This document shows positions 1 to 7,994 of a DNA stretch of 7,994 nt, piece by piece. Position numbers and translations under genes: made by a program. This DNA comes from Dehalococcoidia bacterium (GTDB lineage Bacteria > Chloroflexota > Dehalococcoidia > GIF9 > AB-539-J10). Position 1 is the first letter of the stretch; every line of letters begins with the position of its first letter. The notes below the pieces were generated by a model, which saw only the letters and a program-made list of their open reading frames with translations, had not been told where the DNA came from and did no database searches. The stretch lies in assembly GCA_030606765.1 (NCBI GenBank), contig JAUWFX010000083.1, forward strand, positions 1 through 7,994, in the 5' to 3' direction.

Positions 1-192
1 TGGGGGCCAGACTACCGGTTTTTGCTCCCTCTATCCACGCTGGTTGGCGCCATCTTCCTCATCCTGGCCGATACTTTAGCCCGTACCATAATTCCTCCTA
101 CGGAGATTCCGGTAGGAATAATTACTGCTCTCTGTGGAGCACCTTTCTTTCTTTATCTATTGCGGAGAAGAAAGGGGCTCGCTTTCTTTTAA
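1..192 (+). CDS. FecCD/BtuC-type ABC transporter permease, C-terminal end (partial)
   Basis: This open frame enters from the left edge and stops at TAA 190-192, giving 63 residues. They resemble the last helix pair of FecCD-family permeases: the [20 protein letters not shown] segment, a LADTLART motif, then a [22 protein letters not shown] helix and a basic tail (RRRKG). In this family the permease dimer forms the inner-membrane channel for iron-siderophore, haem or cobalamin uptake, powered by a cytoplasmic ATPase. The ATPase gene starts about 106 bases downstream on the same strand, so the two probably form an operon. The substrate cannot be told from this fragment, because the binding protein and any upstream riboswitch lie outside the window. 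The family call is fairly safe; the true start is not visible. Confidence 0.86.
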
Positions 193-202
193 ATTGTTTG
201 CC

Positions 203-258
203 TGTCACCCTGAACGAAGTGAAGGGTCTTGAGATTCTTCGCTTCGCTCAGAATGACA
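203..258. repeat. 56-base imperfect palindrome (interspersed-repeat type)
   Basis: The sequence begins TGTCACCCTGAACGAAG and ends CTTCGCTCAGAATGACA. Folding the two 28-base arms together gives 21 Watson-Crick pairs. The 7 differences are all transitions; on the + strand RNA four of them are G-U wobbles and three are A/C mismatches. It lies between the permease stop and the ATPase start, so it would be transcribed inside the operon as a long hairpin. From memory, palindromes of this TGTCATTCTGAGCGAAG type are scattered through many bacterial genomes, which suggests a small mobile palindrome. I see only one copy here and no clear target-site duplication. Confidence 0.75.
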
Positions 259-298
259 AGAGGAATAGGTAAAATGATGAGAGGAGCGGGTAGTAAGA

Positions 299-1090
299 AT
301 GATTGAACTGGATAATGTCAGCTTGGGCTACAACCATCGAGCCATCTTGCATAATGTAAATATGAAGGCTGGGCCCGGTCAAATACTGGGGCTTGTTGGC
401 CCCAATGGCTCGGGGAAGTCAACATTAATCAAGGGAATGACTCGGGTAATAGAACTATTCTCCGGGCGTATCTTAATCGACGGCCGCGATATAAAAACTA
501 TTAAGCACGACGAACTGGCCCGCCTTGTTGCCACGGTGCCGCAAAGCCCTGCCCTGCCCGGGGCCTTCACTGCTTTCGAAGTGGTGCTTATGGGACGAAC
601 GCCTCACCTCGGGCTTCTTCGCTACGAGGGAGGACAGGACCTGGCTATCGCCTGGCAGGCCATGGAGGCAACGCATACCCAATCCTTCGCCGAGCGCAGA
701 GTAGGTGAGCTCTCAGGAGGAGAGAGACAGAGGCTTATTATCGCCCGGGCACTAACGCAGCAGCCAAAGGCGATGCTCCTTGACGAGCCAACTGCCAATC
801 TGGATATAAACCATCAAGTCGAGATTCTCAATCTGGTCAAGAGCCTTTGCCTGGAGCAAAGTCTGACCGTCATTATCGCTTTACATGATTTGAATTTAGC
901 TGCTCAATACTGCGCTTGGATGGTCATGCTAAATGAAGGGAAAGTTTACGCTGAAGGCACGCCACTCGACATACTCACAGCGCCGAATATCAAGAAGGTT
1001 TACGGAGCCGAAGTATGTGTTTATCCCCACCCTATTAATAAGTTGCCTACCACTTTTATCACGGCAGGCGGGAGTCATGGAACGAGCTGA
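299..1090 (+). CDS. ABC transporter ATP-binding protein, iron-complex/cobalamin type
   Basis: A 263-residue cytoplasmic ATPase, the usual length for FecE/FhuC/BtuD-type subunits, that would hydrolyse ATP to drive import through the FecCD permease encoded just upstream. All motifs are intact: Walker A GPNGSGKST (34-42), Q-loop glutamine in VPQS (Q82), signature LSGGERQR (138-145), Walker B AMLLDEP with D162/E163, D-loop, and switch histidine in ALHDLN (H196). The MGRTPHLG segment after the Q-loop is typical of the iron-complex branch. The ATG at 299 is the first possible start: an in-frame stop lies at 278-280. A GAGGAG sits at 281-286, a rather long 12 bases ahead. The gene ends 18 bases before the stop of the convergent acetyltransferase. 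Substrate is unknown; siderophore, haem or corrinoid are all possible. Confidence 0.95.
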   Translation: MIELDNVSLGYNHRAILHNVNMKAGPGQILGLVGPNGSGKSTLIKGMTRVIELFSGRILIDGRDIKTIKHDELARLVATVPQSPALPGAFTAFEVVLMGRTPHLGLLRYEGGQDLAIAWQAMEATHTQSFAERRVGELSGGERQRLIIARALTQQPKAMLLDEPTANLDINHQVEILNLVKSLCLEQSLTVIIALHDLNLAAQYCAWMVMLNEGKVYAEGTPLDILTAPNIKKVYGAEVCVYPHPINKLPTTFITAGGSHGTS

Positions 1091-1108
1091 TATAATTCCT
1101 CTCCCCCA

Positions 1109-1648
1109 TCACAATCCTCTCCATTCCTCCCTCAGGATGCCGAACTGTAGCAGGTCATGATATTGCCCGTTTTTGAAAATGTCTTGCCGCAGACGGCCTT
1201 CTTCCCGAAAGCCGACTTTTTTGTGAAACTTAATACTGCGTTCGTTGAAGGCGACTGCAGTCGATGAGATGCGATGTAAATTCAATTGTTGGAAGCCATA
1301 GTTGATTAGCAGCCGAGTAGCTTCAATACCATAGCCTTTGCTCCAGTAATCCTTTTCACCTATGACGATTCCAAAATTGGCATTGTGGTCTTTTGAGTTA
1401 ATCTCGTGCAGCCCACAGTTGCCGATGGGTTTAATTGAATCACCTTCGATCACTTCGATAACAAACGAAACATCGCTTTTCGCCCTCGTGGTGCCCAATT
1501 CCTCGATGTATTTCTCCTCGGCCATCTCAGTCATCGGCAGATACAAAGTAAGATACTGGATTACCTCCGGGTCGTTAAACCACTTTAGAAAATATGAGAT
1601 ATCCGATCTCTTTACCGGCCGTAGAAGAACGCTCTTGCCCTTTAACAT
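1109..1648 (-). CDS. GNAT family N-acetyltransferase, RimJ/RimL-like
   Basis: A 179-residue single-domain protein of the size usual for RimJ/RimL/SpeG-type enzymes, which move an acetyl group from acetyl-CoA to a protein N-terminus, a polyamine or an antibiotic amine. It starts with the typical LRPVKRSDISYFLKWFNDPEV stretch. The acetyl-CoA pyrophosphate-binding loop is visible as YWSKGYGIEA (101-110), followed by TRLLINYGF. The C-terminal half carries NERSIKFHKKVGFREEGRLR (135-154), the conserved segment in which an asparagine and a small residue approach the cofactor, then a DLLQFGILREEW end. The acceptor substrate cannot be deduced. The ATG at 1648 has only a weak purine-rich stretch upstream. 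The gene is convergent with the ABC ATPase and shows no functional link to its neighbours. Confidence 0.93.
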   Translation of the reverse strand: MLKGKSVLLRPVKRSDISYFLKWFNDPEVIQYLTLYLPMTEMAEEKYIEELGTTRAKSDVSFVIEVIEGDSIKPIGNCGLHEINSKDHNANFGIVIGEKDYWSKGYGIEATRLLINYGFQQLNLHRISSTAVAFNERSIKFHKKVGFREEGRLRQDIFKNGQYHDLLQFGILREEWRGL

Positions 1649-2108
1649 TTAAATTCGTCCCTTTATCCTTGAGCTAGTTTTGTTATCCCCAATCGAATAT
1701 TAAGGCGGAGACCATGCTCGCCTAAATACGGCATATAATAACCTCAGAAAAATAATAAGCCCGGCTTTCTTATCTCCCCGGGCTCGATGCTCCTAATATT
1801 CTTAATAGTGGATTTAAGTTTCCCTGAAGTTGGAGACACACCAAGCCCAATAGACGCTGACGTCGAACTGAGCGTAGTAAACGATTGCACAGAAAGGCTC
1901 TTTATTGTCATGGGACTTCCGTATGTCTGTTGAAGCTATGTGAAGCTCATTCTAATGTGTCAAATAAGCTATTGTCAACTTGAATATGATGAGAATACAG
2001 GTGAGCCTAATGTGGTTTTACACCTGCTGTACCGGACAAAGGTAAATATACCAGACAAAACCATATCTAAGCTTCTAATTGTCGAATAAGTCACTGAGGG
2101 GGCGAGCT
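1649..2108. other. Gene-poor intergenic region, about 460 bases
   Basis: I find no convincing gene here. It holds two hairpins near 1703-1723 and 1758-1784, described partly as a separate terminator entry. There is also an inverted pair CAGGTG (1998-2003) and CACCTG (2021-2026) with a 17-base loop, a possible weak stop signal beyond the minus-strand asparagine-synthase-like gene, and a short near-repeat, TACCGGACAAA / TACCAGACAAA, around 2030-2060. No tRNA, riboswitch or insertion sequence end is recognisable. It may be decayed sequence. Confidence 0.5.
1748..1784 (-). terminator. Putative intrinsic terminator upstream of the acetyltransferase gene
   Basis: On the minus strand AGCCCGG (1784-1778) and CCGGGCT (1764-1758) form a perfect 7-base stem with a 13-base loop, followed by TATTATTTTTC. 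This fits an intrinsic terminator for minus-strand transcripts that pass beyond the asparagine-synthase-like gene, though it lies about 325 bases past that gene's stop. A second hairpin at 1703-1723 (AGGC/GCCT, a one-base bulge, then GAG/CTC) follows it. Confidence 0.45.
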
Positions 2109-3083
2109 TCATGACAGGGGGTGACAGAAACCACAAGTTGGGCAGTGGTATATGCCCATGGCTGCTCCGCAGCAGGGACATCTGATTTCATCGTCCCTGG
2201 CCTTGGCAATTTCCCCCACGATTTCGTTATAGATACGCCAGTAAAAGAAGTGCTCTTTGTTTATAAACTTTATGTCAACTTCTTTTCTTGCTGATTGGAA
2301 TTCTTCGTCTGTGACTATAGCGTTTATTATTCCGTGCAGTTTAGTGGAGCCAGAGCCGTACTCAATGGGCTCCTTCCTCCGCCACACTACCTCCGGGGGA
2401 ATCAAGTCCTCAAAGCTCTTTCTCAGGATATACTTCCCTACCCCGTCTTTGACCTTGAGCTCCGGGCTTATTTCCAGGGCAAAGCGACCAAAATCCTCAT
2501 CCAGGAAAGGCTGCCTTATTTCAACGCCCAAAGCCCTGCCAAGATAGCCAGCTGAGAAGTGCCAGTTTTGCGAAAGCCTTCTTATATACCTTTCCAGGTC
2601 TTGAGGAGGAAGCTCTGCCATATAAGAATAGCCGGCGAATAGCTCATCGGCTCCGTCACCGGTCATAACAGAGCTAATCTTATTCTCCCTGGCAAGTTTA
2701 AGGGCAAAATATATGGAGAGGTCGTTGGGCAGGGCGAGGTCAAAGGTCTTCAGTATTCTTATAACCTGGGGAAGGGTGGCAAGCGCTTCTTCCGTAGTGA
2801 ATTCCATTTTCCTATGCTGTATTCCCAGGAGCTGGGAAATCTTTTCTGAATAACTCAGGTCAGATGCCAGGGAGTCTTTCAGCGCCACTGTGAAGCCTGT
2901 GCTCGGCCTGGCTACAAAAGCCAAAATGCCGGTATCGAGCCCTCCTGATAGGAGTATGCCTTCGGTTTTGCTTCTCCCCACAGCTTCCTTAAGCTTACTC
3001 CTTAACTGCTCACAAACATCCATATCGACGGGTCCTTTCGCACCTATAATAACATTTTCCCCGTCTCTCAGACTTTTAATCAT
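2109..3083 (-). CDS. Stand-alone asparagine-synthase-domain protein with C-terminal zinc ribbon
   Basis: A cytoplasmic, ATP-pyrophosphatase-type enzyme related to the synthetase half of AsnB and to beta-lactam synthetase. From ATG 3083 it is 324 residues. Family motifs, in that numbering: PP-loop SGGLDT (46-51; AsnB has SGGLDS), GDGADELFAGYS (142-153), IRQPFLD (189-195), GKYILR, and RRKEPIEYGSG, which matches the conserved RKExFxxGxG region. There is no N-terminal glutaminase domain, so an amidation would need free ammonia or a partner. The last 24 residues hold a CPCC-x8-CPTC zinc ribbon, not part of AsnB. The open frame extends to GTG 3119, but that codon has no ribosome site, a TATAAT-like box lies only 3 bases before it, and the extra codons fall inside the duplicated RNA element, so I prefer ATG 3083. 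Product unknown; asparagine formation is possible but not shown. Confidence 0.87.
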   Translation of the reverse strand: MIKSLRDGENVIIGAKGPVDMDVCEQLRSKLKEAVGRSKTEGILLSGGLDTGILAFVARPSTGFTVALKDSLASDLSYSEKISQLLGIQHRKMEFTTEEALATLPQVIRILKTFDLALPNDLSIYFALKLARENKISSVMTGDGADELFAGYSYMAELPPQDLERYIRRLSQNWHFSAGYLGRALGVEIRQPFLDEDFGRFALEISPELKVKDGVGKYILRKSFEDLIPPEVVWRRKEPIEYGSGSTKLHGIINAIVTDEEFQSARKEVDIKFINKEHFFYWRIYNEIVGEIAKARDDEIRCPCCGAAMGIYHCPTCGFCHPLS

Positions 3084-3105
3084 TAAAAGCTTCACACTTG
3101 AACTC

Positions 3106-3140
3106 TTGACATGTCTCACTGTATTATATTAAGCTATACT
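3106..3140 (+). promoter_or_regulatory. Candidate promoter of RNA element copy 1 (weakened)
   Basis: A perfect TTGACA at 3106-3111 is conserved with copy 2. The base positions that align with copy 2's -10 box read TAAGCT (3130-3135), a poor -10. A better hexamer, TATACT, lies at 3135-3140 but 23 bases from the -35. The promoter is probably weaker than that of copy 2, or uses another -10. Confidence 0.45.
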
Positions 3141-3180
3141 GTCAGAACAGCTCTTGTAAGATTATTAGAATTGTTCCAGC

Positions 3181-3189
3181 AAGGAGGTG
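3181..3189 (+). promoter_or_regulatory. Very strong Shine-Dalgarno of the copy 1 short ORF
   Basis: AAGGAGGTG is a full match to the usual anti-Shine-Dalgarno tail of 16S rRNA, and the ATG at 3194 follows after four bases (GGGC). It is stronger than the site of any of the larger genes in the window, and it is fully conserved in copy 2. This is the main evidence that the short frame is translated. Confidence 0.8.
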
Positions 3190-3193
3190 GGGC

Positions 3194-3259
3194 ATGACAG
3201 AGAAACAAGTCTGGTTATGCCGCTGGATGTTTCCCGACCGGAGCTCTCTGGCAACGTAA
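3194..3259 (+). CDS. Putative 21-residue leader peptide, copy 1
   Basis: The frame begins MTEKQVWLCRW and ends in LAT before TAA 3257-3259. It has an ideal ribosome site. The copy 2 frame has exactly the same length and keeps WLCRW, FP, RSS and the final threonine. The last codons form the 5' arm of the 14-base stem that closes on 3288-3301, so a ribosome reaching the stop codon would melt that stem, an arrangement typical of attenuation-type leader peptides. Against protein-level selection: the 14 substitutions between copies fall 5, 5 and 4 on codon positions one, two and three. It has no signal peptide or membrane segment. It could equally be an RNA feature with incidental coding. Confidence 0.5.
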   Translation: MTEKQVWLCRWMFPDRSSLAT

Positions 3260-3421
3260 GTAGTATTTGACTTCGATAGTCAAGGTGCGTTGCTGGAGAG
3301 CACATGGAAGCGCTGAGTTCTTCGTCTGTAAGGCAAAGCTCCCAAGAAGAGGCAGCGGCAGTTCAGCTTAGAAACAGTAAATATCAAAAATATCAAATCA
3401 CCTGAAGTTAGGAGGGCAAAA

Positions 3422-4492
3422 ATGAAATTAGTCATAAGAATAAGTTCAATTATTCTATTACTACTTCTCATGTTGGTTCCAACAATAGCGGTATCCCTAG
3501 ATCAAAAAGATCAAAAATATCCTGAATTTATCAATGGGGAGTCCGTAATTTTCGTTCAAAATTCAGAGAATACATTCTCTCTGGACTCTAGCGATGTTGT
3601 CTTAACTATCCTTGACGATTCCAGCAGCATCGAAGAGTCTATGACAAAGTTTTCAGATTATCTCAGCAACCATCAATTGCCTAAAGGATGGTCAATTACG
3701 GTTCTCGGTGGCCCAGGAGCTTCTAAAGAAGAGTATTTACAGGTTCATAATTCTTTCAACGATGCGGTTGAGAAGAACGGCGGCCCTTTTAAATTGCAGC
3801 AGCAGTCGCTAGGGCGAACATACGCTATTTGCGCTCCGACTGACCCTAGTTCAGAGACAATCAGGTACATTGCTGCAGAGTGGCTAGCGCCCCAAGTCGG
3901 TAACAACCAAAATCAATATAGTGCGATGTTGGTCAATGGTTGGACTGATCAGAGCTGTACTGACCCCAATGGCAACCCCTGGAGTGGCTACTTCCTGCAA
4001 TCCGGACAACTCTACGTAGCTGGGCTTGGATTTCATGTATGGGCCGACACTACGACGAGCTTTCAAGCCCAGGATTGGGGAGTTCCATATGTTGCCGGCC
4101 ATGAATGTTGGTATGCTATTGCCTGGTTCGCAAGTGGTTGGTCTATGGCCATGTCCGACCAAAATACAGGGGGGTGGGTATGGCACTGGGAGCCTGCGGC
4201 TGTCGGGACAAGACTGGTCGAGAGCAACGATACTAGCGTATTCTTTGAGAATTGGAATACTAACGACAACTGGGAACAGGGATTTACCAGCCCGATATCT
4301 GTGTTCAACGCTTATGATGGGATGTCGTATCCTCTCAGTATTCATCCATGGAACAATGACTATATTTATATACAAGATACTTTTGGCAACAAAATATCAA
4401 ACGGCTGGTGGTTTTGGAGTACAATTCGAGGCCGCCTGCGCAACCTTGGGACAGCTAACTGGAATTTGTGGAGGATTCCGCTTGCCCAATAG
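3422..4492 (+). CDS. Secreted tryptophan-rich protein of unknown function
   Basis: A 356-residue protein that I do not recognise. It starts with a clear Sec signal: MKLVIR, then a hydrophobic core IILLLLLMLV (10-19) and probable cleavage near residue 25 (TIAVS-L). The mature part is acidic to neutral, rich in N, S, G and aromatic residues, with 20 tryptophans overall (about 5.6%), most of them after residue 150. Notable spots are FHVWAD (204-209), GHECW (226-230), WVWHWE (252-257) and NGWWFW (327-332). This dense aromatic C-terminal region looks like a beta-rich, possibly carbohydrate- or surface-binding fold, but that is a guess. There is no HExxH and no visible catalytic triad. AGGAGG at 3410-3415, six bases before the ATG, supports the start. 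It follows RNA element copy 1 with no terminator between, so it may be expressed from that promoter. Confidence 0.86.
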   Translation: MKLVIRISSIILLLLLMLVPTIAVSLDQKDQKYPEFINGESVIFVQNSENTFSLDSSDVVLTILDDSSSIEESMTKFSDYLSNHQLPKGWSITVLGGPGASKEEYLQVHNSFNDAVEKNGGPFKLQQQSLGRTYAICAPTDPSSETIRYIAAEWLAPQVGNNQNQYSAMLVNGWTDQSCTDPNGNPWSGYFLQSGQLYVAGLGFHVWADTTTSFQAQDWGVPYVAGHECWYAIAWFASGWSMAMSDQNTGGWVWHWEPAAVGTRLVESNDTSVFFENWNTNDNWEQGFTSPISVFNAYDGMSYPLSIHPWNNDYIYIQDTFGNKISNGWWFWSTIRGRLRNLGTANWNLWRIPLAQ

Positions 4493-4684
4493 TTTAAACG
4501 ATGAGCTTGTTCAGCAAAGAACGATAGAATCATTGCTCCATCTGGCAATGGCAATGGAAAAATTAAGAGAACACGAATATTGCAACCTTTTTCGACTTTC
4601 TGCATTACAGTGATAGAGGAAGGCAGAATCGTTGAAAAAATAGAATAGGGGCAGTGACCTTTTGATCGATTACGATGGAGAAAG

Positions 4685-5833
4685 GTGTCAGCGAACGTGA
4701 GTAAAACAAAAGTGGTGTACATTTTAATTGCCTTGGTGGTGGTATTGGTGGGTGCTTTGGTGGTAATATTGACTGTGGTGCTACCGTCTTATAAGGCGGA
4801 TGATTATGCCGTACAAATATGGCAGCCAGGGACGGTAAGTGGTGAACCAGAGATACTGTTAGCTTATGGTATTGTTGTTGATGATGGCAACCACGTGCTG
4901 ACTGTCCTGGACTATGAAGAATATACCCCAGACAAGCTATTAGTGGTCTCACCCGAATACGGCAGGTTCAATGCATCTATTCAAGCAATAGACTACCGCA
5001 CCAGCGCCACACTGCTTCAATTGCAAGATGCCGACTTACCGACGGCTGAAATCGGCGACACTTCATCCCTAGCCTCAAACCAGAGTCAGAGGGTGTACGT
5101 TCGGGGGTGGGTCGATGGAGCCAGTAAATACGTGAAGTGCCCGGCGAATGCCTGCTTCTCAGAAAAAACAGCACCATTATTCTTCTCGGTAAGTATACCG
5201 CAGGGAGTTGTCGCAAAGGGAGAAGTTTGGGTTGGCGAATCAGGGGCAGTAATAACCGATGAAGATGGCAAAGCTATCGGTCTGGTGGGCAGGTACTGGA
5301 GTAAGTTGCAGGCAGTGACCCTTCCTGCAGGATATGCATATCTTCCGTTGGCAATAAACATCGATAGTGCTTTAGGGCTATTAACAGATACAAGTCGCAC
5401 AAACGGACCAGCGGTATTCGTTCTATTGACCAGGCTCAGTGGTACAGATATCATGCCCGGGAACGTTCTGTCAGTCAATGATATCGAAAACCTGGCTACA
5501 AATGTAACGGGATTACTTGATGAGCTTGGGGAGCCTTTGCCGCTAGATGACCTGGCGCAATACTCCTCGGGTCTGCCCAGGTTTTTCCATCCCGAGGAAG
5601 GCATCATGCTGATAGCAGCTTTTGCATATCCTGTAGAACTGCACGATACCGACAACAATTTACTTGCCAGCGCTAAGTGGATTGGCATCCACTGGGACAG
5701 GAGCGAAGGCAAACCCAACCGCCTGATTTACGGAAGCACTGCCTATGCAGTGGAAGGTACTTATAGTATCGAAGGCGCTATAAGTGGTCTTGTACAACTC
5801 GTTGAACCGGTATTGTCAGAGCTTGAACATTAA
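4685..5833 (+). CDS. Membrane-anchored protein with degenerate trypsin/HtrA-like protease domain
   Basis: A 382-residue protein with a single N-terminal membrane anchor (about 11-33), then an extracytoplasmic region. Residues 60-200 follow the order of an HtrA-type trypsin fold: AYGIVVDDGNHVLTV (60-74), AIDYRTSATLLQL (101-113), LPTAEIGDTSSL (118-129), and GESGAVITDEDGKAIGLVG (184-202). The catalytic serine is kept (S186 in GESGA), but the histidine position of the usual LTxxHVV motif reads LTVLDYEEY (D76), and the aspartate of the usual TDLALL motif reads TSATLL (S107). It is therefore probably a non-catalytic pseudoprotease, or has a shifted active site. The 200-382 region is unassigned, and no PDZ domain is evident. 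The start is GTG 4685 with GGAG at 4677-4680; GTG 4697 is an alternative. Its stop codon lies inside the left edge of repeat copy 2. Confidence 0.85.
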   Translation: MSANVSKTKVVYILIALVVVLVGALVVILTVVLPSYKADDYAVQIWQPGTVSGEPEILLAYGIVVDDGNHVLTVLDYEEYTPDKLLVVSPEYGRFNASIQAIDYRTSATLLQLQDADLPTAEIGDTSSLASNQSQRVYVRGWVDGASKYVKCPANACFSEKTAPLFFSVSIPQGVVAKGEVWVGESGAVITDEDGKAIGLVGRYWSKLQAVTLPAGYAYLPLAINIDSALGLLTDTSRTNGPAVFVLLTRLSGTDIMPGNVLSVNDIENLATNVTGLLDELGEPLPLDDLAQYSSGLPRFFHPEEGIMLIAAFAYPVELHDTDNNLLASAKWIGIHWDRSEGKPNRLIYGSTAYAVEGTYSIEGAISGLVQLVEPVLSELEH

Positions 5834-5852
5834 AAACTCCACGCTTGCATTT

Positions 5853-5881
5853 TTGACATAGTCCCTGCATTATGCTAAAAT
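5853..5881 (+). promoter_or_regulatory. Sigma-70-type promoter of RNA element copy 2
   Basis: TTGACA (5853-5858) and TAAAAT (5876-5881) are separated by exactly 17 bases. This is the best promoter match in the window. The predicted start of transcription is near 5888, which is the first base of a 7-pair hairpin (GTTAGGC with GCCTAGC, 5888-5914). It lies 20 bases after the stop of the degenerate-protease gene. Confidence 0.82.
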
Positions 5882-5914
5882 ACATCTGTTAGGCAAGGAT
5901 GGTCGACGCCTAGC

Positions 5915-5923
5915 AAGGAGGTG
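5915..5923 (+). promoter_or_regulatory. Very strong Shine-Dalgarno of the copy 2 short ORF
   Basis: AAGGAGGTG, identical to copy 1 and with the same four-base GGGC spacer to the ATG at 5928. The neighbouring GGGGC (5923-5927) can pair with GCCCC in the 3' domain of the same RNA, so the site could be masked in one fold; that pairing is not available in copy 1. Confidence 0.78.
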
Positions 5924-5927
5924 GGGC

Positions 5928-5993
5928 ATGATACGGACAGAAGCCTGGTTATGCCGATGGGTGTTTCCTCATCGGAGCTCCCCGACAACGTAA
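5928..5993 (+). CDS. Putative 21-residue leader peptide, copy 2
   Basis: The frame begins MIRTEAWLCRW and ends in PTT before TAA 5991-5993, the same length as the copy 1 frame with no gap in the alignment. Shared features are the ribosome site, WLCRW, the FP pair, RSS and the final threonine. Three of the 14 changed bases are silent changes in matching codons (R10, P14, S18); most of the others alter residues, so there is no sign of strong selection on the peptide sequence. It may be a small regulatory peptide, a device that brings ribosomes to the RNA, or a chance frame inside a structured RNA. Confidence 0.48.
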   Translation: MIRTEAWLCRWVFPHRSSPTT

Positions 5994-6154
5994 GGGGGGA
6001 AGTGGTTTCGAGAGGTAAGGTACGTTGCTGGAGAGCAATTGGAAGCCCCGAGCTCTTCGTCTGTAAGGCTAGGCTCCCAAGAAGGGGCAACGCCAATTCA
6101 GCCGGAAGCTGAAGTGGAAGAGTAGGGGTGATTTAAAACTGAATAGCGATATTC

Positions 6155-6193
6155 AGGAGCGAGCTTCAAAATTTGGAGCTCGCTCTTCTTATT
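6155..6193 (+). terminator. Intrinsic terminator of RNA element copy 2
   Basis: GAGCGAGCT (6157-6165) pairs perfectly with AGCTCGCTC (6177-6185). The stem extends inward by one wobble and three pairs to a three-base loop, and outward by two pairs, and is followed by TTCTTATT. The opposite strand has no T-run, so it acts on + strand transcripts. It shares two bases with the GNRA hairpin at 6139-6156, so the two helices compete slightly. Confidence 0.88.
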
Positions 6194-6215
6194 ATCTGTT
6201 ATGCCGCTCTGGCAT

Positions 6216-6443
6216 TTACCTGAATAGACGGAAGACAAAGTTCAGAATGATGGTAAGCACAACGCTAATTATGATGCAGGTTACTATGGGGAAGAAAAAC
6301 TGAAAGCTCCCCCTTTGCAGAAATATATCGCCGGGAAGCTTTCCTAAGAAAGGAATTCGCTGCCAGAAGAACAATAGCAAACCGAGGAAGGCGAGAAAAG
6401 CTCCGCCGAGAATTAGAATCTTGCCTATGCCTTGTAAATCCAT
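6216..6443 (-). CDS. DUF2905 family small membrane protein
   Basis: A 75-residue inner-membrane protein of the usual length for DUF2905. It has two hydrophobic helices (about 8-27 and 50-72), separated by a short loop containing the family hallmark RIPFLGKLPGDI (29-40) and then an aromatic FQFFFP stretch. The biochemical role of the family is unknown. The ATG at 6443 has only a weak GAGTGG upstream. The gene is divergent from the exonuclease gene. A small perfect hairpin (ATGCC/GGCAT, 6201-6215) directly follows its stop, but with no T-run behind it on this strand. It lies head-to-tail against the terminator of RNA copy 2, so the two transcripts converge. Confidence 0.92.
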   Translation of the reverse strand: MDLQGIGKILILGGAFLAFLGLLLFFWQRIPFLGKLPGDIFLQRGSFQFFFPIVTCIIISVVLTIILNFVFRLFR

Positions 6444-6502
6444 GCTAAGCCACTCAGTATAAATTTTACCTTATTATGCTATCTTTGGTGTAATCTGGCT
6501 TG

Positions 6503-6508
6503 TATAAT
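6503..6508 (+). promoter_or_regulatory. Possible -10 box for the exonuclease gene
   Basis: A perfect TATAAT lies 29 bases before the ATG at 6538, in the 94-base gap between divergent genes. No good -35 box is seen at normal spacing, so the assignment is weak. Confidence 0.4.
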
Positions 6509-6537
6509 AATACTGGAAAAAATAAGAAGATGCAGGC

Positions 6538-7074
6538 ATGATTACCTCATACAGCCGAGAGTTAATGTTAGGTATTCCACAAGGAACCTTGATTGACCTA
6601 GAGACCACTGGCCTTGATATGGACCAGGATGAAATAGTGCTTTTCGGCTATATTCAAGGGAGCCGCCTCGAGATAATTTGCCGCAGTTCGCAAGAAGAAG
6701 CGCCGTTTATCGCTCAGCTTGCTGAACTCGTTCCGACGCTCCCCAGGCCATTTTACGCCTATAATCTCTCCTTCGAGAAGGGATTTCTTCAAGCTAAAGG
6801 GATCGATATAGAAGGGATAGACTTATTTCAGCCCTGGAAGGAAAAAGCCGAGGCACTTTACCTCAAGTGGCCTAAGCTGGACGAGCTATTTTCTCACGCG
6901 GAGCACTATTTTAACGAGCCAGTGATAAGTGGCAAGGACGTCCCCTTGCTATGGCAAAGGTTCCTTTACACAGAGGATGATAACTATTTGCAGCAAATCA
7001 TAAAGCACAACGAGTCTGACCTGCTTAGAGAGCTATACTTGCTGGTGTATTACCGAGATAGCTACAAGGTTTAA
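6538..7074 (+). CDS. RNase H-fold 3'-5' exonuclease, YprB-like
   Basis: A 178-residue single-domain protein of the RNase_H_2/YprB type, a metal-dependent DEDD-fold nuclease acting on RNA or single-stranded DNA in the cytoplasm. The first motif is LIDLETTGLD (D20, E22). The second is AYNLSFEKGFL (74-84), where the usual aspartate of the NxxxFDxPFL pattern is glutamate (E80). The third is HNESDLLREL (157-166) with D161. A KDVPLLWQRF segment and the short spacing between motifs fit the YprB group rather than DnaQ. The DNA or RNA substrate is not known. The ribosome site before ATG 6538 is weak; ATG 6565 (Met10), preceded by GAGAG, is an alternative that keeps all motifs. The pfkA gene follows after 136 bases on the same strand. 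Confidence 0.86.
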   Translation: MITSYSRELMLGIPQGTLIDLETTGLDMDQDEIVLFGYIQGSRLEIICRSSQEEAPFIAQLAELVPTLPRPFYAYNLSFEKGFLQAKGIDIEGIDLFQPWKEKAEALYLKWPKLDELFSHAEHYFNEPVISGKDVPLLWQRFLYTEDDNYLQQIIKHNESDLLRELYLLVYYRDSYKV

Positions 7075-7182
7075 GGGAGGCAGATAGCAAAGCATTGAGA
7101 ATACTGAGGGCTTTTTCTGCCCGGGCAACTCGGGTGCCGCAGGCTTTCTACAAAGTCAATGAAATAGCTCTACGGTTCATGG

Positions 7183-7188
7183 TAGAAT
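7183..7188 (+). promoter_or_regulatory. Possible -10 box for pfkA
   Basis: TAGAAT lies 22 bases before the pfkA ATG. The -35 region at 17 bases upstream reads TGAAAT, a poor match. The preceding gap (7075-7182) shows a short GC-rich CCCG/CGGG hairpin near 7121-7137 without a T-run, so I do not call a terminator. Confidence 0.3.
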
Positions 7189-7210
7189 AGAAGCTAAACC
7201 GGAAAGTATT

Positions 7211-7994
7211 ATGAAAAAGATTGGCGTGTTGACCAGCGGCGGTGACGCTCCGGGGATGAATGCCTGCATCAGAGCTGTCGTCCGCTGTGGGGTTAGCCGT
7301 AAGCTTGAGGTCGTGGGAATTCGCCGAGGGTACTGCGGTATATTGGAGGAGGACTTTGTAAAGTTAGGCAGCAGGTCGGTAGCCAATACTATCTACCGTG
7401 GGGGTACTTTCTTAGAAACAGCTCGCTGTGAGGAAATGAAGACCGCGGAAGGCATAAAGAAGGCAAATGAAATTCTCCAACGGGAAGGCATCGAGGGATT
7501 GATAACTATAGGCGGGGATGGCACCTTTCGCGGTGCAGTAGCCCTGGCTGAAGCCGGAGATGTAAAGGTGATTGGTATTCCGGGCACTATAGATAACGAT
7601 GTCTATGGCACTGACTATGCTATTGGCTTCGATACCGCCATAAATACTGCTTTGGATGCGATAGACAAGATTAGAGATACTGCAGGCTCGCTACAACGCC
7701 TCTTTTTCATCGAGGTCATGGGAAAGAGTAGGGGATTTATTGCACTGGAAGTAGGAATTGCTGGCGGAGCCGAAGATATCTTGATTCCGGAATCAGAGAC
7801 AAAAATAGAACAGCTTTGCCTTGATATAAGGCGCAGCTTCAAGAGAGGTAAAAAATCCTTTATTGTGATAGTTGCTGAAGGAGACGAGGCAGGCGGTGCG
7901 TTTTCAATTGCTCAACAAGTATGGGAGAGATTAAGGCTGGAGTACCGAATTTGTGTGCTGGGACATGTCCAAAGAGGTGGCTCACCTACAGCCA
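7211..7994 (+). CDS. pfkA: ATP-dependent 6-phosphofructokinase (5' part, cut by window end)
   Basis: The committed step of glycolysis: phosphorylation of fructose 6-phosphate to fructose 1,6-bisphosphate. 261 codons are visible and the frame is open at the edge; full-length relatives are about 320-350 residues. Motifs: MKKIGVLTSGGDAPGMN (1-17), YRGGTFLETAR (62-72), GGDGTFRGA (101-109), PGTIDNDVYGTDYAIGF (124-140), DTAGSLQRLFFIEVMGKSRG and VLGHVQRGGSPTA at the edge. Gly at position 104 in GGDG and Gly (not Lys) in PGTIDND mark the ATP-using rather than the pyrophosphate-using form. D128 is the expected catalytic base. One small change: the EVMGR arginine of the E. coli enzyme is lysine here. 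The start ATG 7211 has GGAAAG (7201-7206) upstream. Confidence 0.97.
   Translation, partial: MKKIGVLTSGGDAPGMNACIRAVVRCGVSRKLEVVGIRRGYCGILEEDFVKLGSRSVANTIYRGGTFLETARCEEMKTAEGIKKANEILQREGIEGLITIGGDGTFRGAVALAEAGDVKVIGIPGTIDNDVYGTDYAIGFDTAINTALDAIDKIRDTAGSLQRLFFIEVMGKSRGFIALEVGIAGGAEDILIPESETKIEQLCLDIRRSFKRGKKSFIVIVAEGDEAGGAFSIAQQVWERLRLEYRICVLGHVQRGGSPTA

Follow-up and report, generated by a model that had tools for sequence, protein, structure and literature searches.

What is the element that stands twice in the same orientation within 3 kb of DNA from a Dehalococcoidia bacterium (JAUWFX010000083.1, positions 1 to 7,994; this whole stretch of 7,994 nucleotides (nt) is called the window), and what might it do? 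It looks like an undescribed RNA gene that recurs in many Dehalococcoidia: a promoter and a terminator of its own frame a short structured RNA, in which a peptide of about 21 amino acids is also encoded. Our computations yielded a family of such elements with a conserved small open reading frame (ORF), covarying helices P2, P3 and P5, and no common downstream gene. We propose, at a probability of about 0.38, that the element is a free-standing gene for a dual-type RNA, in which a ribosome on the RNA's own small ORF gates a 3′ domain that acts in trans.

The repeated element contains a small open reading frame

The duplication in direct orientation, put forward in an original prediction made from the letters alone, is real. 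No other direct repeat in the window matches the length of its two gapless blocks, 3178-3260 versus 5912-5994 (83 nt, 83% identity) and 3272-3367 versus 6007-6102 (96 nt, 84% identity), and the TTGACA block and drifted linkers described earlier reappear when 3081-3420 is aligned to 5828-6150. The idea that the repeated unit runs from promoter to RNA was borne out overall. A scan of 3000-6300 returned 10 promoter-like sites versus a mean of 5.0 in shuffled sequence, the best being that of copy 2 at 5853-5881 (TTGACA, 17-nt spacer, TAAAAT; 11/12 matches; like all features of both copies, on the forward strand), and TTGAC stands at this -35 place in most rows of the copy alignment. The idea fits copy 1 less well, as its TTGACA (3106-3111) is part of no listed promoter site and the hexamer aligned with the -10 of copy 2, TAAGCT, is weak. 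Two other parts of the prediction had to be given up. The element does not end at 6102, since the family continues to about 6195, with a covarying junction and then a terminator-like hairpin, and it is not purely non-coding, since the first block contains a conserved ORF.

The conserved word AAGGAGGTGGGGCATGA, whose meaning had been overlooked, is the ribosome-binding site plus start codon of this 21-codon ORF. In copy 2 the Shine-Dalgarno sequence AAGGAGG lies at 5915-5921 and is conserved in the alignment, and the ORF (5928-5993; frame, motif and codon tests) reads MIRTEAWLCRWVFPHRSSPTT up to its stop codon; in copy 1, sequence and copy alignment place the Shine-Dalgarno sequence at 3181-3187, and frame and motif analysis place the ORF, MTEKQVWLCRWMFPDRSSLAT plus stop, at 3194-3259. 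All 29 copies in the first alignment have a stop in this frame 19-28 codons past the aligned start (codon 20-29 of the register); the start of L027 lies one codon later. Shine-Dalgarno sequence, start, a W-x-F/L-P motif and stop were recovered in 48 of 49 copies with ORFs of 19-36 codons, a count that is not independent because the search pattern demanded those codons; the ORF of L048 was read by eye after the ORF script had missed it. The stop codons of the 48 vary (TAA 20, TAG 20, TGA 8). At 21 more distant places, where the motif was not demanded, an ORF with a Shine-Dalgarno sequence is present in 18, 15 of which also have F-P. Among the distant places L125 has an ORF only with a CTG start, and none was found in the second copy of L112, in L123 or in L127. 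The W of the motif is replaced in some groups, for example by R in L114, L115, L116, L121 and L122. In a codon test on 44 unique sequences, 31% of the codon differences in frame 0 were synonymous, with a mean BLOSUM score of +0.93, versus 19%/-0.52 and 7%/-0.63 in the other two frames. By these counts the element has the putative conserved coding ORF expected of a dual-function small RNA.

The element forms a family in Dehalococcoidia

Rfam 15 (4227 covariance models) gave no match at E<=1 on either strand of the window, which agrees with the earlier failure to recognise a class and rules out a known non-coding RNA (ncRNA) or riboswitch at that threshold; a tRNA/tmRNA search of the window found none. 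In the genome collection, a pattern from the 3′ block matched three times. A true relative was among the matches, JAOUFZ010000023.1 (L003, 'Dehalococcoidia bacterium'), which matches the window over 231 nt at 91% and has, as in the window, an exonuclease-like gene downstream. The matches in Mediterraneibacter (L001) and Chitinophaga (L002) were taken as chance, about two being expected by a rough estimate.

Of the 52 genomes in the relative's family, BLASTN with copy 2 detected the element in 26. Covariance model R1, built on the 3′ part, matched 34/393 genomes of the class and 6/400 of the phylum and, at E<=0.01, added 3 of the 18 tested family genomes without an earlier match. Model R3, which comprises the P2-P5 region of 37 sequences (alignment A5), matched 50/84 genomes of the relative's order, 50/393 of the class and 14/400 of the phylum, all 14 of the latter being also among the class matches. 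Some class carriers, such as G147, are absent from the set of 84 order genomes, so the element occurs in two orders or more. R3 found no match in 343 of the 393 class genomes, part of which may be due to strict filters and incomplete genomes. The original prediction had expected a family, and the element indeed recurs far beyond a local duplication and has no Rfam counterpart. The expected multiplicity within genomes did not hold, as 44 of the 50 class carriers have one R3 match and only 6 have two; four genomes with matched contigs >1.3 Mb have one copy each.

Dehalococcoidia include organohalide-respiring bacteria that are used against chlorinated solvents. One carrier genome is probably that of Dehalococcoides mccartyi 195, so that the element is probably present in this dechlorinating species. 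In genome G147 the putative D. mccartyi copy spans contig positions ~1,395,060-1,395,460 on the forward strand. A conserved gene for an RNA plus a peptide, usually present once per genome, would provide a handle on RNA regulation there.

Alignment A2 holds 25 of 29 copies (omitted: L020, at a contig end; L027, with an N stretch; copy 1; L032), and A5 holds 37 sequences (omitted: L015, L024, L028, L048, L059, and L058, which is close to L057). A6 has 64 rows from 62 sources (omitted: L020, L027, L046, L056, L058, L075, L076 and a weak match in G001:C172). This weak match (L064, ~2056-2215, minus strand) is a second one in the relative's genome and comprises the 3′ domain, by eye without a small ORF.

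Covarying helices and a terminator-like hairpin

In copy 2 a predicted hairpin, P1 (GGCAUGAU / GUUAUGCC, 5925-5955), encloses the start codon. P2 is formed by strand 1 (5977-5989), within the end of the small ORF, and strand 2 (6024-6036). Strand 3 (6046-6058), which is also the alternative partner of strand 2, makes up P3 together with strand 4 (GAAGAGUAGGGG, 6117-6128), and between them lie the arms P4 and P5 of a three-way junction (6059-6116). Folds and covariation support strand 1 and the junction arms, covariation and pairing counts strand 2, and covariation strands 3 and 4. On A5, 90% of 1289 cells in P2-P5 are paired (P3 98.5%, P2 90.2%, P5 79.2%), with two-sided changes at 24/35 pairs; none of 500 shuffles was as good, and slid versions reached 40-55%. 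The case for structure rests on this covariation, because copies folded singly gain only modest stability over shuffles (copy 1: z -2.28, 2/200 shuffles as good; copy 2: z -1.33, 17/200).

The mean column identity of the 3′ module is 78% versus 72% in the 5′ module, and of its words AGCTC is invariant and GAGTA nearly so. These values bear on the alternative that survives best, although we rate it as rather unlikely: the element could be a small mRNA whose product is the peptide itself, the structured 3′ part being a stability or translation-control element. Conservation at the amino acid level (a Leu codon, for example, appears as TTA, TTG, CTA, CTG or CTC) and the conserved Shine-Dalgarno sequence and start speak for it. 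Yet a 3′ module that is somewhat more conserved than the 5′ module, contains invariant words and covaries is more than an mRNA tail needs, and the peptide diverges strongly between groups.

A terminator scan returned as its sole site the copy 2 hairpin at 6155-6187 (feature with U-rich tail, 6155-6197), which alone is no evidence because the shuffled region yields 3.0 sites on average. The hairpin and tail are, however, aligned across copies. A stem of >=10 followed by T-rich DNA was found after 20 of 21 distant places versus 9/105 shuffles, a separation seen only with stems >=10, since 72/105 shuffles pass a permissive test. At the 21 places the hairpin starts 3-61 nt past the model end and is separate from P3. 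At the sequence level, the promoter-like site and the terminator-like hairpin would fit the free-standing transcript of a dual-function small RNA. Locus L112 (G302:C15, 180-732) contains a tandem pair, with a terminator-like hairpin after each copy; in the second copy the peptide frame is altered and the Shine-Dalgarno sequence lies far from the start.

Judged by its sequence, copy 1 is a derived version: its final helix strand and its terminator have been lost, and an ORF at 3422-4492 now follows it. It retains P2, with 13/13 pairs between strand 1 (3243-3255; fold) and strand 2 (3289-3301; fold and strand pairing count), followed by a remnant of the 3′ domain (3302-3367) without strand 4. 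A covariance model built with copy 2 and without copy 1 scored them at 148.9 and 75.7 bits, respectively.

A possible ribosome-gated switch

In the proposed mechanism, an RNA of ~300 nt (copy 2: about 5888 to 6195) would be transcribed from the element's own promoter. A ribosome would bind the strong Shine-Dalgarno sequence, open P1 around the start codon and translate ~21 codons, ending just behind strand 1. Its position, i.e. completing, idling, or stalled at the W-x-F-P codons, which end ~7 nt before strand 1, may decide whether strand 1 closes P2 with strand 2. Closure of P2 would in turn gate the folding of the 3′ domain (the P3 three-way junction), whose state would be the output and might act in trans. 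With the ribosome position gating the 3′ domain, the element would therefore resemble a leader-peptide attenuator that lacks its own structural gene. Copy 1 and the second copy in genome G034 could represent secondary uses as ordinary leaders. If this reading is true, attenuators can persist as independent trans regulators. A bolder version is distinctly unlikely in our estimate: a class-wide RNA regulator that uses its own W-x-F-P peptide to read the translation state, which it then reports in trans. It would be an attenuator turned independent gene that has been kept across Dehalococcoidia, with copies occasionally reused as leaders.

Several observations fit a switch. Strands 2 and 3 are complementary at >=5 of 7 positions in 64/64 copies and at >=6 in 57/64, and in A5 95% of the cells of the 2:3 helix are paired, against 27-67% in slid versions. 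One position varies in concert across all four strands, as UAUA in 32, CGCG in 16 and mixed in 16 of 64 copies. With strand 1 masked and strand 4 not yet made, 2:3 exceeds a probability of 0.5 in 35/64, and 25/64 copies fold as the switch predicts. Of the 64 rows, 61 contain an in-frame start codon, and in 49 of these it is paired in the local fold at P>0.5; in the main group the pairing comes from hairpin P1.

A number of results weigh against the ribosome-gated reading. The 2:3 helix fails two of five covariation measures (197/500 and 192/500 shuffles as high), the copies are related and hence not independent, including at the four-way position, and 2:3 complementarity follows anyway should strands 1 and 3 resemble each other on other grounds. 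The predicted switch is absent from the folding of 39/64 copies. With strand 1 masked and strand 4 present, P3 exceeds 0.5 in 49/64 copies and 2:3 in only 8/64. In 11/64 copies, copy 2 included, 2:3 forms at >0.5 even with strand 1 free, which lowers our confidence in this reading and in its bolder version. Copy 2 behaves in reverse of the model, as 2:3 reaches 0.96 with strand 1 free, and P2 is at 0.00 in the folded 165-nt segment; in the masked nascent state both window copies have 2:3 at 0.00-0.01. Copies of the D. mccartyi type (L108, L109, L111) have 2:3 at 0.05 at most in every state, and their start codon tends to stay unpaired (about 0.2). The codon measures of the ORF are high, yet lie within the extremes of 300 column permutations (synonymous fraction 0.313 versus a null mean of 0.164, standard deviation 0.054, maximum 0.345; mean BLOSUM 0.93 versus -0.25, standard deviation 0.44, maximum 1.18). 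The F-P codons UUUCCY (window 5964-5969 and relatives) could mask the Shine-Dalgarno sequence, to which they are complementary, and because of this pairing part of the peptide motif may be retained as RNA. Altogether, the folding models lend mixed support, as they back a ribosome-gated switch as a transient state only, while the ORF and the helices are well supported.

The second alternative, which we consider unlikely, does without a switch: a structured RNA, either base-pairing or protein-binding, would act in trans, and the ORF would merely load a ribosome or protect the 5′ end. The free-standing position, the conserved covarying core and the equilibrium fold with P2 plus P3 (each above 0.5 in 58/64 copies when the full segment is folded) agree with it, whereas the retention of an ORF with constraints on frame, stop and amino acids does not.

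Comparison with known systems

The trp and his operons have classical leader-peptide attenuators. The element resembles them in that a predicted small ORF with a ribosome-binding site overlaps strand 1 and that strand 2 is complementary to both strand 1 and strand 3. It differs in having no conserved regulated gene downstream (copy 1 and L066 being positional exceptions), in that its 3:4 helix is not the terminator, the terminator-like hairpin being separate, and in that many copies form 2:3 weakly or not at all. SgrS/SgrT and RNAIII are dual-function small RNAs; the element likewise appears to combine structure and a small ORF in one putatively free-standing RNA, but lacks any Rfam match. rnTrpL is the RNA part of the Sinorhizobium meliloti trp attenuator, which is located before trp genes. 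The leader peptide of this attenuator, peTrpL, is reported to act in trans (PMC7298713). The likeness lies in the attenuator leader peptide and its reported action in trans; rnTrpL/peTrpL derives from a trp attenuator, whereas the element's copies usually share no downstream gene.

A 50-genome study defines categories of upstream ORFs (uORF), small ORFs (sORF) and high-ranking ncRNA candidates and finds an rdhA motif mostly in Dehalococcoides (PMC11109978). The element is not described in the passages of that study consulted, and its supplement may list it unnamed. Among the open PubMed Central papers that our searches returned, we recognised none that describes this element or a similar small RNA in Dehalococcoidia.

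Genomic context of the element

Neighbouring genes are not shared between genomes, those downstream often run in the opposite direction and no conserved same-strand neighbour was found. Because of this lack of conservation the element usually appears to be a free-standing unit, and a role as leader of one particular gene is ruled out by the differing downstream genes. It is improbable, for the same reason, that the element is generally a cis attenuator or leader of whichever gene comes next, even though copy 1 precedes ORF 3422-4492 and the second copy of G034 precedes oligopeptide-transporter-like genes. An mRNA of a type I toxin whose ribosome-binding site is masked by long-range folding is very improbable, since the short ORF and an RNAalifold pairing of the Shine-Dalgarno sequence with the 3′ tail, which we distrust owing to a shift of the Shine-Dalgarno columns in one group, stand against peptides with charged residues and, by eye, no obvious membrane-spanning stretch, mostly one copy per genome, and matches both inside and outside the relative's order.

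A mobile element was rejected as well, given the single match in 44/50 carrier genomes and the unshared neighbours. Phage records searched with 3170-3370 and plasmid records searched with 5900-6105 gave no match, and two exact patterns were absent from viral contigs.

The divergent second copy of G034 (L066, G034:C85; copy and genes together ~3152-8998) is followed by a gene for a family-5 solute-binding protein and by permease genes, by eye without a terminator in between. In the window, an asparagine-synthase-domain protein with a Cys-rich C-terminal end is encoded directly upstream of copy 1 (2109-3119, minus strand), and its relatives adjoin the element in L007, L009, L012, L015 and L023. 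L009 and L015 have the order asparagine-synthase-like gene, element, DUF2905 gene, which in the window is interrupted by two ORFs and the second element. The first of these ORFs (3422-4492, forward strand, 356 amino acids), which is preceded by copy 1 and has by eye a signal-peptide-like start, has no Pfam family in a Pfam scan; the second (4685-5833, 382 amino acids), between the copies, has a weak, below-cutoff trypsin-like match in the same scan. Relatives of both inter-copy ORFs (window 3422-5833) stand before the only element detected in G025.

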